DNA of 37,558 nt from Alistipes sp. (GTDB lineage: Bacteria > Bacteroidota > Bacteroidia > Bacteroidales > Rikenellaceae), in NCBI GenBank assembly GCA_017631255.1, contig JAGBTP010000047.1, positions 1 through 37,558 of the forward strand, written 5' to 3'. Made by a program: the position numbers and the translations under genes. Below, in pieces: positions 1 to 37,558 of this stretch. The first letter of the stretch is position 1. Each line of letters begins with the position of its first letter. The notes under the pieces were generated by a model. That model was given only the letters and a program-made list of their open reading frames with translations. It ran no database searches and was not told the origin of the DNA.

Positions 1-1220
1 ATCTCAACCTTCTCGCGAGTAATCTCACCGAGGATACGGTTAGCGAGGCCTGGACCTGGGAAAGGATGGCGGTTGATGAGTCTATCGCTCATACCCATAG
101 AGCGACCCACGCGACGAACCTCGTCCTTGAACAAGAGGCGCAATGGCTCTACTACCTTGAGGCCCATCTTCTCTGGAAGACCACCCACATTGTGGTGCGA
201 CTTGATGACTACGGCGGTACCGTTCACCTGTGCCGATTCAACAACATCAGGATAGATAGTACCCTGACCGAGGTACTTAACGCCTACAAGCTTCTTAGCC
301 TCAGCCTCGAAGACCTCGACAAAGTCCCTGCCGATAATCTTACGCTTAGTCTCTGGGTCGGTAACGCCTGCAAGGTCGCCGAAGAACTTATCCGACGCAT
401 CTACGCCCTTGACATTGAGGCCAAGACCACGGTATGAGTCGATAACATCTTCGTACTCGTTCTTACGCAAGAGACCAGAGTCCACGAAGATGCAGTAGAG
501 GTTCTCGCCGATAGCCTTATGGAGGAGCATAGCTGCAACGGATGAGTCAACGCCACCCGAAAGGCCAAGCACAACCTTATCGTCGCCAATCTTCTCGCGA
601 AGCTCCTTAACGGTAGTCTCCACAAAGCTCTCTGGAGTCCAATCACCAGAGCAACCGCAGATGCCCTTAACGAAGTTAGAGAGCATAGCAAAGCCCTCCT
701 CTGAGTGGTAAACCTCAGGGTGGAACTGGATAGCCCAGGTCTGCTCGCCCGCAATGCGGTAGGCAGCAACAGCAACATCCTCAGTAGAGGCGATGATGTT
801 GTAACCCTCTGGGATTGTGGTGATGGTATCGCCGTGCGACATCCACACCTGTGACTCTGCCGAGAGACCCTGCATAAGTGCATCCTGAGCATCTACTACG
901 CGCATACGAGCACGACCGTACTCGCGCGATGGTGACGCCTCAACCTTACCGCCGTAGAAGTGTGCAAGGTACTGAGCACCGTAGCATACGCCGAGCAGCG
1001 GCATCTTGCCCTTGATGGCATCGAGGTCGATGCGTGGAGCATCCACATCGCGCACCGAGCGTGGTGAGCCTGAGAGGATTACACCTCGCACAGAGTCATC
1101 GAGCTTCGGCACATTGTTGAATGGGTGTATCTCGCAATATACCTGCATCTCGCGCACACGGCGTGCGATGAGCTGGGTGTACTGCGACCCAAAGTCGATT
1201 ATTAATATCTTCTCTGTCAT
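1..1220 (-). CDS. guaA: GMP synthase (glutamine-hydrolysing), C-terminus cut by window edge
   Basis: Amidates XMP to GMP using glutamine and ATP, the last step of de novo GMP synthesis in the cytoplasm. About 406 residues are visible of a family length near 510, so roughly the last 100 (the dimerisation end) lie outside the window. The N-terminal class I glutamine amidotransferase shows the nucleophile Cys79 in GVCYGAQ and the His167/Glu169 pair in FHPE. The ATP-pyrophosphatase domain follows with the P-loop-like SGGVDSS near residue 225. The ATG at 1218-1220 gives the canonical start [13 protein letters not shown]. It lies 30 bp downstream of guaB on the same strand, so the two form a guaBA operon. 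Confidence 0.97.
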
Positions 1221-1250
1221 CGGTTATTATTTATGACTTGTTTGCTTATC

Positions 1251-2726
1251 TTACTCACCACGCGAGTAGTTAGGAGTCTCGCTGGTGATGGTAATGTCGT
1301 GTGGGTGGTTCTCCGTAACACCGCTTGAGGTGATGCGGATGAAGCGTGCCTGCTGGAGTGTGTCAATATCCTTAGCACCGCAGTAGCCCATACCTGCACG
1401 GATACCGCCAACAAGCTGGAAGACAGTCTCTGAGAGCTTACCCTTGAATGGCACGCGACCAACGATACCCTCTGGCACGAGCTTCATAATGTTACCCTCG
1501 TTACCCTTCTGGAAGTAGCGGTCCGCAGAACCTGCCTTCATAGCGTCGATAGAACCCATACCACGGTACGCCTTGAACTTACGGCCGTTGTAGATGATGG
1601 TCTCGCCTGGCGACTCCTCAGTACCTGCGAACATCGAGCCGACCATAACACAGTTACCACCTGCAGCAAGCGCCTTAACGATATCGCCCGAATAGCGGAG
1701 ACCGCCATCAGCGATGATAGGCACGCCAGCCTTCTTAGCCTCAGTAGAAGCGGCATAGATAGCCGAAAGCTGAGGCACGCCAACGCCTGCGATGATACGA
1801 GTAGTACAGATAGAGCCTGGGCCGATACCCACCTTGATGCCGTCAGCACCATTCTCGATGAGGTACTTAGCAGCCTCGGCAGTTGCGATGTTACCCACCA
1901 CAACATCGAGGTTAGGATATGTAGCCTTAATCTGCTTAAGGAGTGTAACCACGCCCTTAGTATGACCGTGAGCCGAGTCAAGAACAACAGCATCCACCTC
2001 CTCAGCCACGAGAGCCGCTACGCGGTCCATAGCATCTGGTGTGATACCGATGCCGGCAGCCACACGAAGGCGACCCTTAGCATCCTTGCACGCACTTGGA
2101 TTATCCTTAAGCTTAGTGATATCGCGATAGGTGATAAGACCCACGAGTTTGCCATTATTATCCACAACAGGGAGCTTCTCAATCTTATTCTCGAGGAGCA
2201 CCTCAGCAGCACGCTTGAGGTCGGTGTCGTGTGTAGTGACGATGTTATCCTTAGTCATCACCTCGTCGATGAGGCGCGACATATCGCTCTGGAATCGGAG
2301 GTCACGATTTGTTACGATACCGATGAGCTTGCCCTCGTCGTCCACTACGGGGATGCCACCAATCTTGTTCTCCTGCATAAGCTGGAGCGCATCGCCCACG
2401 GTGTTGGTGCGGAGGATTGTCACTGGGTCGTAAATCATACCGCTTTCGGCACGCTTCACACGGCGCACATGGGCCGCCTGAGCTGCAATCGACATATTCT
2501 TATGGATTACACCGATACCACCTTCTCGAGCCAGGGCTATTGCGAGAGGAGCTTCGGTGACGGTATCCATAGCCGCCGAAACGATAGGTATGTTAAGAGT
2601 GATATTGCGAGAGAAACGACCGCAAGTCGAGACCTCACGAGGTAGAACCTCTGAATATGCTGGTACGAGCAACACATCATCGAATGTCAATCCTGTTGGC
2701 AGTACCCTTTCGTCGATAAAAGACAT
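1251..2726 (-). CDS. guaB: IMP dehydrogenase
   Basis: Oxidises IMP to XMP with NAD+, the committed step of guanine nucleotide synthesis. The product is 491 residues, the normal family length. It begins [17 protein letters not shown], and the frame stays open for 54 more codons upstream, but those residues match nothing in the family and run through the promoter. The TIM barrel is interrupted by a tandem CBS (Bateman) pair at roughly residues 95-210. The catalytic loop GPGSICTTR carries the nucleophile Cys307, and the flap and GSxFAG phosphate-binding segment ([15 protein letters not shown]) are present. First gene of the guaBA operon. Confidence 0.97.
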
Positions 2727-9786: not shown

Positions 9787-9826
9787 GTGGGGCTGTTCGT
9801 ATGTTGCGAGCAGCCCCAACTGTTTT
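9787..9826 (+). terminator. Terminator of the MFS gene
   Basis: GGGGCTG (9789-9795) pairs with CAGCCCC (9811-9817), extended by outer AGT/ACT, followed by TGTTTT. Confidence 0.75.
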
Positions 9827-9868
9827 CCCAAGAAGCTGCATAAGAAGAGCTGATTTTAGAGACGCGAA

Positions 9869-9916
9869 GCTCGAAATAGCGCAGTTTACTAAGGCGTAGA
9901 TGAGCATATTGAGAGC
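9869..9916 (+). repeat. Stem-loop element, copy 1
   Basis: 5' arm 9869-9883, 17-nt loop, 3' arm 9901-9916. From the base: GCTC/GAGC, a tandem G-A/A-G mismatch, AATA/TATT, a bulged A (9906), GC/GC, a G-A mismatch, CA/TG, and a loop starting GTTTACTAAGGC. The same plan with different stem bases occurs at 36685-36731. It lies between the MFS terminator and the riboswitch promoter in a gene-free stretch (9767-10398). Apart from the terminator, this element and the riboswitch, I see nothing else there. Confidence 0.6.
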
Positions 9917-10002
9917 GATCTTGACACCAAAGCAGCCTTACGATACAGCTTCTATATAATTTTTTTTTTGCTTATTAGCACTCACTATATCATTTTTTTT
10001 CT

Positions 10003-10010
10003 TACCTTTG
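10003..10010 (+). promoter_or_regulatory. Promoter of the cobalamin operon, -7 element
   Basis: TACCTTTG matches TAnnTTTG and lies about 10 bp before the start of the aptamer. The usual -33 position is only T-rich sequence. Confidence 0.6.
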
Positions 10011-10017
10011 CCACAGC

Positions 10018-10200
10018 ATTGGTTCTCAGGCTACGCCGTTAGCCGAGATTAAAAGGGAATCGGGTGGAAATCCCGGACAGTTCCCGCTGCTGTGAGTCTC
10101 ATTAGGCTCTGCGACATCAATGGCCACTGGAGGAGTATCTCTGGGAAGGCATCGCGGAATGGAGACAAGTCAGAAGACCTGCCAAGCGTTTATAACGAGA
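10018..10200 (+). ncRNA. Cobalamin (AdoCbl) riboswitch
   Basis: Conserved aptamer blocks appear in order: GGTTCTCAGG at 10021, the core AAAAGGGAATCGGGTGGAAA then TCCCGGACAGTTCCCGCTGC then TGTGAG (10051-10098), GCCACTGG near 10122, GGGAAGGC at 10143-10150, and the B12 box AGTCAGAAGACCTGCC at 10168-10183. Binding of B12 normally blocks expression of the genes behind it. About 200 nt separate the aptamer from the first ATG and should hold the expression platform; no U-tailed terminator is seen there, so control of translation or an RNA fold is more likely. Confidence 0.93.
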
Positions 10201-10398: not shown

Positions 10399-12327
10399 AT
10401 GAGAAAATTTTTATTATCGGCCTTGAGCGTAGTAGCTACGCTATTGGTGATGAACAGCTGTTCGTACGACGACTCGTCGATATGGAACGCGGTGAACAAT
10501 GTAACGGATCGCGTCGAGGAGTTGGAGAAGAGCGTGCAGAAGATTAACAACGAGATTGCAACATTGCAGACGATTCTCGATGCAATGCAGGACAATGTCT
10601 ATGTTACGGATGTGAACCAGACACCGGAGGGCTATACCCTCGTCTTCTCAAACGGCACAACTGCCACAATTACAAATGGTAAGGATGGCAGCAACGGCAA
10701 GGATGGCAAAGATGGTGCTACGCCTGTAATTTCGGTTAAGCAGGGCGAGGATGGCAACTTCTATTGGACCATTAATGGCGAGTGGCTACTCGTTGATGGC
10801 CAGCCTGTTCGCGCTAATGGCGACGACGGTACGGATGGTAATGACGGTATCGACGGCACGGATGGCATTGATGGCAAGGATGCTATCGCCCCACAGGTGA
10901 GAATCAACGACCAGACTAAGGAGTGGGAGATATCGACCGACGGAGGCAACACCTGGGTATCTACGGGCGTTGTTGCCGAGGGTAAGGATGGCCAGAACAT
11001 CTACACCAACGAGAGCGAGTCGTTGTTCAAGTCGGTAGATAGCACAAATAGCGACTATGTAATCATCACGCTTGCCGATGACACAGAGCTTAAGCTCGCA
11101 CGCTACGACGACAGCTGCCCTCGCTTTATTATCGTAGATGCTCCTGCCGTGGCAGAGGTTGAGTATGGCAAGAGCGTTGAGTTTGTGGTTGAGTGCTACA
11201 ATATCGAGGACTACACCATAAACAAGCCAGAGGGCTGGAAGGCAAAGTATGACGAGAATATTATCGTAGTAACAGCTCCAGCGAAGGATCTTTGTCACTA
11301 TGATGTTGAGGGCGTCGTGGCAATCACTGTGGTATCACCTGAGGGCAAGAGCGCTATCGTCAAGCTCAAGGTGTACGCTATCGAGGTTACGGAGGAGCCT
11401 GAGGAGCCTGTGACACCCGAAGAGCCTGAGGAGCCACTCGGCTATACGCTCAAGGTACTCACTTTCGAGGATGAAGATGCGCTATTCCAGCCATACTACT
11501 TGGAGTATGCCTACGGCTGGAGCGGTAAGGAGATCGCTACTTGGAGCGACCTTATCGACGACTCGCAGTATAATGGTCCGCTGATGTATGGCAACGACCA
11601 GATGGATGCGATGTACTATTGGTACGACGAGGGCAATACCGAACTCTACCATATGTTCCCCAACAACTACGCCTACTGCTACTGGGGTGGCGGTCACGCT
11701 GTCTCGAACTACTGGGGTGCGGGTTATACCGACGAGGATAGAAACAACCACATCGCCAAGTACTATGGTCAGGACTATGTCAACCAGTGGGCTGGCAAGC
11801 CTGGCGCTGATGCTGCGCTCGGTTGGTTCTTGTTGCAGCTTATGACACCCGTAGCGGCACATTCGGGAGATAACTTCTGCGTGCACTACGGCTACAAGGA
11901 CGACTACTCGTACATCGAGAACATACCAGAACTCTCGTTTATGGATGGCGAGCCTCGCGTGATTGACCATATGTATGTCACCAACACCATCTATACGCTC
12001 AACCAGCTCTACAACGGCGTTAAGAGCGAGGAGGGTAACAGCTTTGGTGGTAATTGGAACGGCCTGACCGAGGATGCCTGGCTCAAGATTGCGGCCTATG
12101 GCTATGCCTCTATCGACGATGACGAGCCTTGCTCGGAGGCGGAGTTCTACCTCGTTAAGGGCTACGAGGTGGTCGAGGAGTGGCAGAAGTGGGACCTCTC
12201 GGAGCTTGGTGCTGTGGCAAAGGTACAGTTCAACTTCCTCTACTCGGACCAGATGGGCGGCCGCTACGGATTTACCATCCCTGGCTACTTCGCCTACGAC
12301 GACATAGCAGTGCGTTTTGAAGATTAA
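10399..12327 (+). CDS. Surface lipoprotein with DUF4988/collagen-like and DUF4465-like domains
   Basis: 642 residues. The lipoprotein signal ends at VMNS|C (Cys21). A short coiled coil (about 35-64) leads into a DUF4988-type region. Two collagen-like tracts of G-x-D triplets follow (94-106 and 141-161). Next comes a beta-rich region containing an Ig-like module (about 240-328), then a Glu/Pro hinge (about 330-346, repeats of EEP). The C-terminal domain (347-642) is Trp/Tyr-rich and resembles DUF4465 (DGEPRVIDHMYVTNTIYTLN). First gene after the cobalamin riboswitch and 3 bp from the next, so a role in corrinoid capture on the cell surface is inferred from context. Whether it belongs to the BtuH-type B12-binding lipoproteins cannot be decided here. 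Confidence 0.85.
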   Translation: MRKFLLSALSVVATLLVMNSCSYDDSSIWNAVNNVTDRVEELEKSVQKINNEIATLQTILDAMQDNVYVTDVNQTPEGYTLVFSNGTTATITNGKDGSNGKDGKDGATPVISVKQGEDGNFYWTINGEWLLVDGQPVRANGDDGTDGNDGIDGTDGIDGKDAIAPQVRINDQTKEWEISTDGGNTWVSTGVVAEGKDGQNIYTNESESLFKSVDSTNSDYVIITLADDTELKLARYDDSCPRFIIVDAPAVAEVEYGKSVEFVVECYNIEDYTINKPEGWKAKYDENIIVVTAPAKDLCHYDVEGVVAITVVSPEGKSAIVKLKVYAIEVTEEPEEPVTPEEPEEPLGYTLKVLTFEDEDALFQPYYLEYAYGWSGKEIATWSDLIDDSQYNGPLMYGNDQMDAMYYWYDEGNTELYHMFPNNYAYCYWGGGHAVSNYWGAGYTDEDRNNHIAKYYGQDYVNQWAGKPGADAALGWFLLQLMTPVAAHSGDNFCVHYGYKDDYSYIENIPELSFMDGEPRVIDHMYVTNTIYTLNQLYNGVKSEEGNSFGGNWNGLTEDAWLKIAAYGYASIDDDEPCSEAEFYLVKGYEVVEEWQKWDLSELGAVAKVQFNFLYSDQMGGRYGFTIPGYFAYDDIAVRFED

Positions 12328-36562: not shown

Positions 36563-36650
36563 GGTAAGCTTTACCGTGTAGGGCGAGAGGATATCTCGCC
36601 TAAATTAAATTTGTGGTTGGATAGAGGTTAACCTCTCCACCACCAATTTG
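36563..36650. repeat. Cluster of three palindromes upstream of prfB
   Basis: GGTAAGCTTTACC (36563-36575), GGCGAGA/TCTCGCC (36582-36588/36594-36600), and a long imperfect one at 36607-36650 (AAATTTGTGGTTGGA... / ...CCACCACCAATTTG). None has a U-tail. A plus-strand TAAATTTG (36606-36613) looks like a -7 element but no plus-strand gene follows. Confidence 0.6.
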
Positions 36651-36684
36651 TTGTCCGAAGGGTTAGATATGGTGGCTGGTCGCC

Positions 36685-36731
36685 GTTTGCAAATCCGCAG
36701 TTTACTCAAGGCAAATGAGGAATTTGCAAAC
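36685..36731 (+). repeat. Stem-loop element, copy 2
   Basis: 5' arm 36685-36699, 16-nt loop, 3' arm 36716-36731. From the base: GTTTGCAAAT/ATTTGCAAAC (10 bp), bulged A (36721), CC/GG, G-A mismatch, CA/TG, loop starting GTTTACTCAAGGC. Shares architecture and loop with copy 1 (9869-9916). Lies between cysS and prfB, antisense to both if read like copy 1. Confidence 0.7.
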
Positions 36732-36769
36732 AAGCCAGACGACACAGATGCACCCCTTATCACAACAAA

Positions 36770-37558
36770 TTACTCGATCTCCCAATCGAATCCGTCCTTA
36801 CGATCCTTAACTCGAATACCGATAGAGGTGAGGTTATCACGGATCTTGTCGGATGTTGCCCAGTCCTTGTTGGCCTTAGCCTCCATACGCATATTGAGGA
36901 GCATATCTACGAGCGGAGTAACCATATCCTTGCCACCCGACTCGGCTGCCTTCTCGTTATGGAGACCGAGGATGTCGAATACATAGAGGTTGACGATGCC
37001 CTTGAGACGCTCGAGGTCGGCCTCGGTGAAGCTCTGCTGGCCATCTACAGCCTGGTTGATGATGCGCACCCAGTCGAAGAGGGCTGAGATTACCATTGGC
37101 GAGTTGAGGTCGTCGGCCATAGCCTCGCCACAACGGCGCTCAAGCTCTGCAACATCGACGGTAGAGGTAGCTGCCGCCTTAATCTTTGAGAGCGAATCAA
37201 CGGCCTTCATTAGGCGATCGAGACCCTTCTCTGCCGCCTGCAACGCCTCGTTAGAGAAGTCGAGGGTTGAGCGGTAGTGCGCCTGAAGCACAAAGAAGCG
37301 GATGGTCATAGGGGTATATGCCTGAGCAAGCATCGGGTGGTTACCTGTGAAGAGCTGCTCGAGGGTGATGAAGTTACCGAGTGACTTACCCATCTTCTGA
37401 CCGTTGATTGTAATCATATTATTGTGTACCCAATAGCGAGCCGAGTCCTTGCCGAGGGCTGCGGTAGACTGAGCAATCTCGCACTCGTGGTGTGGGAACA
37501 TAAGATCCATACCGCCACCGTGGATATCGAACTGCTCACCAAGGTACTTGGTGCTCAT
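36770..37558 (-). CDS. cysS: Cysteinyl-tRNA synthetase, N-terminus outside window
   Basis: 262 residues of a roughly 490-residue family; the N-terminal half with the HIGH motif lies beyond the window edge. The first visible Met is internal, not a start. Visible: the zinc-ligand segment [20 protein letters not shown], the class I loop KMGKS (a KMSKS variant; a common variant as far as I recall), the DALR anticodon-related region, and the C-terminal domain ending near DWEIE. Minus-strand gene upstream of prfB, 234 bp apart. Confidence 0.96.

Follow-up and report, generated by a model that had tools for sequence, protein, structure and literature searches.

Mobile rod-like hairpins of Alistipes and other Bacteroidales keep their fold rather than their sequence, probably through selection on one strand

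Results

Two rod-like hairpins in the window

The window, a stretch of 37,558 nucleotides (contig JAGBTP010000047.1) from the 1.82-Mb draft genome of an Alistipes species (GCA_017631255.1, here G000), carries two hairpins (Table 1), which a first-pass annotation had described as short intergenic stem-loops of the same architecture but with different stem sequences. Both stem-loops are present where that annotation had placed them, and the bulged A, the two base pairs and the shared GTTTACT loop are found in both copies as described. The G-A mismatch is there as well, in the form of an asymmetric G-A internal loop with GCA opposite GA, and the lower stems are indeed unlike between the copies, each pairing with its own opposite arm. 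Two points of that description had to be amended. The lower stem, given as 10 positions, pairs at 8 of them in copy 1, the other two forming a tandem GA/GA mismatch, and in both copies the stem does not end at the limits given to it: it extends outward to a rod of about 130 nt.

Table 1. Features at the two hairpin loci of the window.
Feature	Position	Strand	Basis
Separate GC-rich terminator-like hairpin, upstream of copy 1	9788..9819	+	sequence
Copy 1, full rod-like hairpin, class 1A arms	9827..9959	+	RNA fold, covariance model R1
Copy 1, tip half (stem-loop of the first-pass annotation: lower stem, bulged A, internal loop, tip)	9869..9916	+	
Copy 1, conserved tip GCAGTTTAC...GTAGATGAG	9881..9904	+	
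Copy 2, full rod-like hairpin, class 1B arms, tips AATTTGTTGT/ACAACAAATT	36642..36776	+	RNA fold, R1
Copy 2, tip half (stem-loop of the first-pass annotation)	36685..36731	+	
Copy 2, conserved tip GCAGTTTAC...GCAAATGAG	36697..36719	+	
Gene X, runs off the window	36770..37558	-	ORF, orthologous sites

The stop codon of gene X (TTA at 36770-36772 on the forward strand) overlaps the 3' tip of copy 2. A hairpin analogous to the terminator-like one upstream of copy 1 precedes the class 1A copies of another genome, G064, in an alignment. Directly 3' of copy 1 lies a cobalamin riboswitch (RF00174, 103 bits; 10003-10199, forward strand), ahead of a gene at 10399. In G000, contigs C2, C6, C10, C33 and C76 end within a rod or at most about 100 bp from one, so that the repeats probably break the assembly.

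Folded as RNA, the full rods have minimum free energies of -37.5 (copy 1) and -42.4 kcal/mol (copy 2), corresponding to z-scores of -3.25 and -4.01, and 0 of 200 shuffles was equally stable in each case. For the short hairpins alone the z-scores are -2.86 and -3.13, and 3 and 0 of 200 shuffles matched their stability. Under DNA parameters only copy 2 stands out (z -3.90, 0 of 200 shuffles); copy 1 is unremarkable (z -1.41), 17 of its 200 shuffles being equally stable.

The fold is kept while the letters change

A first tip pattern, with two mismatches allowed, matched in 22 of 61 genomes including the window's own, against one match of the reversed control over all 61. A single genome contained 40 matches, and some copies are arranged in tandem with a spacing of about 110-140 bp. 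Alignment A2 holds 31 of 51 tip matches, the omitted ones being cut, near-identical or, in one case (L015), a chance match; a rod structure of 51 pairs was derived from averaged base-pair probabilities of these sequences. Compensatory changes on both sides were observed in 42 of the 51 pairs, so that the covariation noticed between the two window copies extends over nearly the whole rod. Double-changed cells numbered 300; shuffling gave 107.6±8.4, and sliding the partners gave no more than 124. Paired cells amounted to 79.1%, a share that fell to 62.2% on shuffling and to 35.7-45.2% on sliding the partners. The percentage paired is biased upward because the structure came from the same sequences; the double-change count is less affected. 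A covariance model, R1, was built from the 31 copies, both window copies among them, and scores copy 1 at 95.1 bits (E 6.8e-22) and copy 2 at 83.8 bits (E 6.5e-19). Searched in this and related genomes, it recovered numerous copies. The earlier claim of a conserved structure on a changing sequence is thus borne out by numerous additional copies in which the changes compensate: the elements retain their folded shape and a short tip motif, and nearly all other letters vary.

The tip consensus is about G[G/C]AG-NN-TAC-N3-6-GTA-NN-TGA, with kept mismatches. Its inner two pairs covary (TT/AA, CA/TG, TG/CA and CG/CG forms were found), TAC..GTA is mostly retained (window copy 2 has GCA), and the pair beside the internal loop is G-U in 31 of 31 A2 copies, locus L271, with G-C, being an exception. 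The GGA/GA loop, the bulged A and the tip G-U stay in register across copies with unrelated stems. In other genera (21 rows from 19 loci) the left AGGC, the tip with its GGA/GA loop and the right AACG are retained, and the arms elsewhere mostly differ yet pair. The tip regular expression behind alignment A7 left 6 of 33 loci without a row (L190, L203, L207, L271, L239 and L240) and fixes part of the tip, so that the expression itself accounts for part of the invariance of the tip columns in A7; it made no demand on the AAGGC and ACGC blocks.

Compensatory change could also arise in the absence of structural selection, if the rods were ordinary decaying miniature elements (MITEs) whose arms are kept complementary by template switching or hairpin repair. 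Template switching is reported to create and maintain hairpins and to yield compensatory change in a single step (PMC8794818), and other palindromes with tandem-repeat arms do occur at the same orthologous sites. However, such arm-to-arm copying may add compensatory changes yet would tend to erase mismatches, and the GGA/GA loop, the bulged A and, L271 excepted, the tip G-U persist. Nor would a folding bias towards one strand, as described below, be expected. We therefore regard this account as improbable and favour selection on the folded form.

A tip-blind scan for long hairpins in 800 kb of G064 returned 73 (initially 74, one N run being removed), of which 46 close with TAC/GTA. They fall into several classes by their inner arms, many sharing similar outer tips, and the window hairpins thus correspond to one class within a wider set of rods present in G064. 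The outer ends vary between lineages, which is unusual for elements under an end-reading transposase. Very stable rods with other tips, such as GATGGGACATACT..GTATTTCCCATTC and GGGCTGTACT..GTACTGCCC, were seen at L135 (13656-13918), L127 (2925-3180), L108 (7793-8042) and L100 (9135-9388); rods of this type often form head-to-tail pairs, many with class 1B outer tips. In genome G300 the elements (L207-L218, L241-L260) possess two successive left arms, L1 and L2, each able to pair with the single right arm.

One strand folds better than the other

By RNA energies the GTTTACT..GTAAAT strand exceeds its complement in stability in 132 of 136 sequences, the mean difference being 10.4 kcal/mol. Neutralising the tip G-U leaves it the more stable strand in 131 of the 136. 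Identical sequences were merged in this set as in the placement set below, and in both a few elements with slightly different ends may be counted twice. Among non-tip pairs, G-U cells outnumber A-C cells (A2, 71 versus 62; A3, 53 versus 13; A4, 80 versus 47), and in A5, counted over every pair, the numbers are 64 and 36, with the tip pair contributing about 21 of the 64. With DNA energies two of four copies favour the same strand by 5-7 kcal/mol, and both window copies have no preference.

This bias would fit a structured RNA, with the GTTTACT..GTAAAT strand transcribed as a small RNA or as a leader or 3' UTR element and multiplication secondary. The tandem G-A mismatches and the tip G-U (31/31) are likewise RNA-like, copy 1 stands out from its shuffles as RNA and not as DNA, and one copy, described below, lies in a Staphylococcus aureus 16S-23S spacer just before the 23S gene. 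Several results argue against it. In the scanned loci there was no Rfam match, no linked gene family appeared among 16 scanned ORFs, in 23 of 81 genomes of the genus no copy was found, and the gene abutting a rod mostly transcribes the complement of the stable strand (57 versus 4; see below). We therefore think it unlikely that an RNA function is primary, and prefer a mobile DNA element of which one strand is selected for its fold.

Distribution in the genus, order and phylum

R1 matched 58 of 81 genomes of the genus (E<=1e-3) and gave no copy in the other 23. At E<=1e-4 it matched 65 of 247 genomes in the order, belonging to 57 of 174 genera, and 33 of 296 in the phylum, where stricter filters in these wider searches may miss weak matches. 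Thirty of the 33 belong to one family (f136), and both of the f136 loci that were inspected carry the tip. Per-genome copy numbers by R1 are minimum values, at most 41 (genus), 13 (order) and 11 (phylum) candidates having been scored; 800 kb of G064 contains at least 20. In G300 a 16-base end motif (at most two mismatches) occurs 235 times, where the two ends of one element may both score, versus 0 times for the reversed control. The exact core was found in 1 of 395 genomes of the phylum, the window's own, in a sample that includes five others of the order. Rfam matched no rod in the window, in a set of 8 loci (E<=1) or in one of 12 loci. The family is large and scattered through the bacteria of this group and probably beyond.

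Matches outside the order

A blastn search of plasmids with one Bacteroidales rod aligned the tip alone in Halomonas (E 5e-6), Fukatsuia (8e-4), Haliscomenobacter and S. aureus (both 1e-2), and a further query added Pseudomonas plasmids; a G300 rod had no match among plasmids. The exact tip is present in seven stretches of six virus contigs, in which a longer exact tip pattern had 0 matches. Phages and E. coli genomes gave no match, in searches that partly used a 40-base consensus. In 6 of 8 gammaproteobacterial and virus rows a left AAGGC and a right ACGC[AC]G lie within 55 nt, compared with 0.64% of background positions with both blocks, which supports homology beyond a merely common tip. 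The Fukatsuia row has neither block, and the Pseudomonas loci L239 and L240 failed the tip regular expression. A gammaproteobacterial link to the rod family is likely.

In S. aureus (L230, NZ_CP077935.1, 2952-3083) the tip and a rod lie in the 16S-23S spacer; R1 matches there over the full model with 54.9 bits, ending 9 bp ahead of the 23S match, and the AAGGC and ACGC blocks are absent. A staphylococcal link is possible. The same spacer has a second AAAGCGGAGTTTACTTGC stretch about 245 bp upstream of the tip.

The elements move

Orthologous sites, a split gene, nested copies and duplicated flanks all bear on mobility. The site of copy 2 could be compared in 14 of 25 loci, those excluded being other-strand matches, one 662-bp gap and two that lack the left match. 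Three of the 14 (L169, L177, L178) have merely 8-15 bp there; seven, the window included, carry class 1 rods that vary from species to species, six of them with the same stop codon at the rod's end; and the remaining four comprise one rod with other inner arms, one unrelated hairpin and two loci with no rod. These empty sites rest on comparison between species and are not base-exact, which counts against the mobile reading. At the site of copy 1, R1 finds a rod in only one of 24 other loci, L152, after the same gene; the others carry rods of other classes or none, and L013 has no R1 match. Palindromes in which tandem repeats, (GTAATTA)n, (GTGAAAA)n or (GTTGAAA)n, form arms around an inner hairpin occupy the same orthologous sites in L145, L147, L155, L159, L167 and L180.

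In L202 a rod splits a gene for a YhcG/DUF1016 nuclease: by Pfam the left ORF covers DUF1016_N 2-49 and the right one 35-137 plus YhcG_C. A complete second rod is nested within a class 1A rod at six places in G064, at the same point each time. Nested composites in class 1A rods at L102 and L107 contain about 70 bp of extra DNA, inserted between TTTTAGGC and CTGCGAAG.

Flank duplication was computed in one genome, G300, where the element extends from TGTCTGTCC to GGACTC and is flanked by ANNTA. Among 26 distinct elements, the two variable bases match between the ends in 18 and 21, where chance predicts 8.4 and 10.7 (0 of 5000 permutations); smaller, less clean sets have the same sign. Because the three other ANNTA positions are nearly fixed, the target duplication can be given as 2-5 bp. 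By eye, no target duplication was recognised in Alistipes-like genomes. Taken together, the split gene, the nesting, the site differences and the flank duplication in G300 show that the elements move.

Search for a mover

The first-pass annotation had named REP or IS200/IS605-type ends as candidates, which would be moved by a Y1 (TnpA-REP) transposase, and asymmetric intergenic hairpins at gene 3' ends in high copy number would suit them. IS200/IS605 elements make no target duplication, however, and the rods are elements of 130-150 bp with a short one in G300. The matching Y1 transposase (PF01797) is moreover found in none of 19 genomes of the genus, carriers of rods among them; the same search detected it in 10 of the 12 genomes taken from other genera and in 5 of the 14 controls. 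The suggestion was therefore dropped as very improbable.

A linked gene set, the other partner that had been proposed, did not emerge either among the 16 ORFs scanned near rods; the scanned ORFs are mutually unrelated. Eight between or beside rods in G300 and G170 (MbnP, DUF2807, RhuM, AAA_14, DsrE, Pyr_redox, ABC and TatA by Pfam) include no mover, and six flanking genes scanned in other genomes are ordinary, again with no mover among them. A regular-expression search of the loci for an autonomous copy, with half-rods around a long insert, gave 11 rows, which were read as chance pairs or tandem neighbours.

Sites like attC, at which an integron-type tyrosine recombinase keeps the fold over the sequence, would also be long imperfect single-strand hairpins, and the tandem spacing of about 110-140 bp is reminiscent of them. 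Yet no cassette ORFs were seen between the tandem units and many copies are single and dispersed; furthermore, attC sites keep their outer boxes and the conserved part here is the tip. An attC-like origin is hence scarcely credible, and a non-autonomous element served in trans remains our preferred reading.

Placement beside genes

Placement was analysed for 130 distinct sequences, 10 of which overlap an ORF (mechanical calls of at least 100 aa). For 57 of the remaining 120, the stop codon of a gene facing the rod lies no more than 15 bp from the rod's 3' end, and for 4 no more than 15 bp from its 5' end. Widening the limit to 60 bp gives 69 and 17, figures that are fairer to G300-like elements, whose actual left end is about 25 bp farther out. 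The mRNA of the abutting gene carries the less stable complement of the rod. By context, 61 rods lie between genes in the same direction, 38 between convergent and 9 between divergent ones. The 46 rods of G064 divide into 19 convergent, 15 same-direction and 3 divergent, with 9 over called ORFs, mostly short ones, against a background of 77 convergent, 218 same-direction and 64 divergent intergenic gaps. The ANNTA target may hold a backward stop codon (TTA or CTA); as ANNTA is nearly symmetric, it is not alone sufficient to explain the orientation of the rods. In L041 an RNase P RNA gene (901-1263, reverse strand) lies directly behind a rod copy (741-872).

Discussion

In this study, we examined two hairpins whose stems covary and found that they belong to a family of mobile rods. 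We consider it likely that the hairpins are copies of a non-autonomous mobile DNA family of about 130-150 bp, resembling MITEs and YPAL elements, which is selected on the folded shape of one strand. Each element is a single long imperfect inverted repeat, and one strand would fold to a rod with fixed internal loops and a conserved tip. An enzyme supplied in trans may recognise this folded strand via the tip and the internal loops, and could insert the element at sites resembling ANNTA by means of a short staggered cut. The covariation and the placement at stop codons might then result from purifying selection on the folded form combined with the loss of badly placed copies.

It is tempting to speculate further that one ancient, shape-read family of mobile hairpins spans several phyla, in Bacteroidales, f136 and Gammaproteobacteria and with a domesticated staphylococcal copy ahead of the 23S gene. 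The folded single strand would be read by the putative enzyme via the G[G/C]A/GA loop and the TAC-N3-6-GTA tip and inserted in a fixed orientation after stops, the arms being free to change as long as they pair. This wider proposal is tentative.

In general, small mobile hairpins are defined by conserved ends and, where it is known, by a resident transposase. The tip of the rods offers a defined bait, which makes the mover of orphan repeats testable. Copy number ranges from none found to probably more than 100 per genome (G300 has 235 end motifs), and because rods are placed one way round after stops, many insertions add a long hairpin to the 3' end of an mRNA.

Literature searches, covering mostly papers outside subscription, returned no description of this family; nor, judged by title, did any of the papers listed for the element's own sequence strings describe it. 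REP and REPIN units with their RAYT, and the ends of IS200/IS605, are structure-read imperfect hairpins near gene 3' ends. REP units measure 20-40 bp (PMC3733652). Such elements are served by a Y1 enzyme, and the rods share neither feature. The candidate RNA HMP2_4205 (Fremin and Bhatt 2021, PMC8040213), a 132-bp palindrome mostly of Bacteroidetes, is described as a predicted terminator often near TPR genes; it is similar to the rods in length and palindromy, a comparison made by description only.

The likeness is closer to YPAL/RU-2 of Yersinia. This too is a small mobile intergenic hairpin with target duplications and with empty and filled sites, its targets lie at dyad symmetries, the duplications measure 3-26 bp, and Yersinia and Erwinia are listed as hosts (PMC2229807); a table in another source also counts three YPAL/RU-2 in E. 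coli (PMC2847712). The RU-2 sequence as printed in Table 1b of PMC2759123 is without the GGAGTTTAC/AAATGAGC core, by text search and by eye rather than by alignment. Insertion next to a stop codon is frequent among the rods, 57 of 120 lying within 15 bp of one at the 3' tip. The same was reportedly seen by De Gregorio in 2006 for YPAL, said to be inserted just after stop codons.

MITEs such as Correia/NEMIS, RUP, ERIC and BrickBuilt are likewise non-autonomous inverted repeats with a short duplication and many copies (PMC2229807, PMC10969869, PMC4596501). They are usually known by their kept ends, sometimes shared with a resident IS. The rods differ, as their ends vary by lineage, and their centre is kept across genera while the arms compensate. 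With centre and fold conserved across many genera and the ends drifting, the mover probably reads shape, as is known for the integrases of attC sites and for Y1 transposases.
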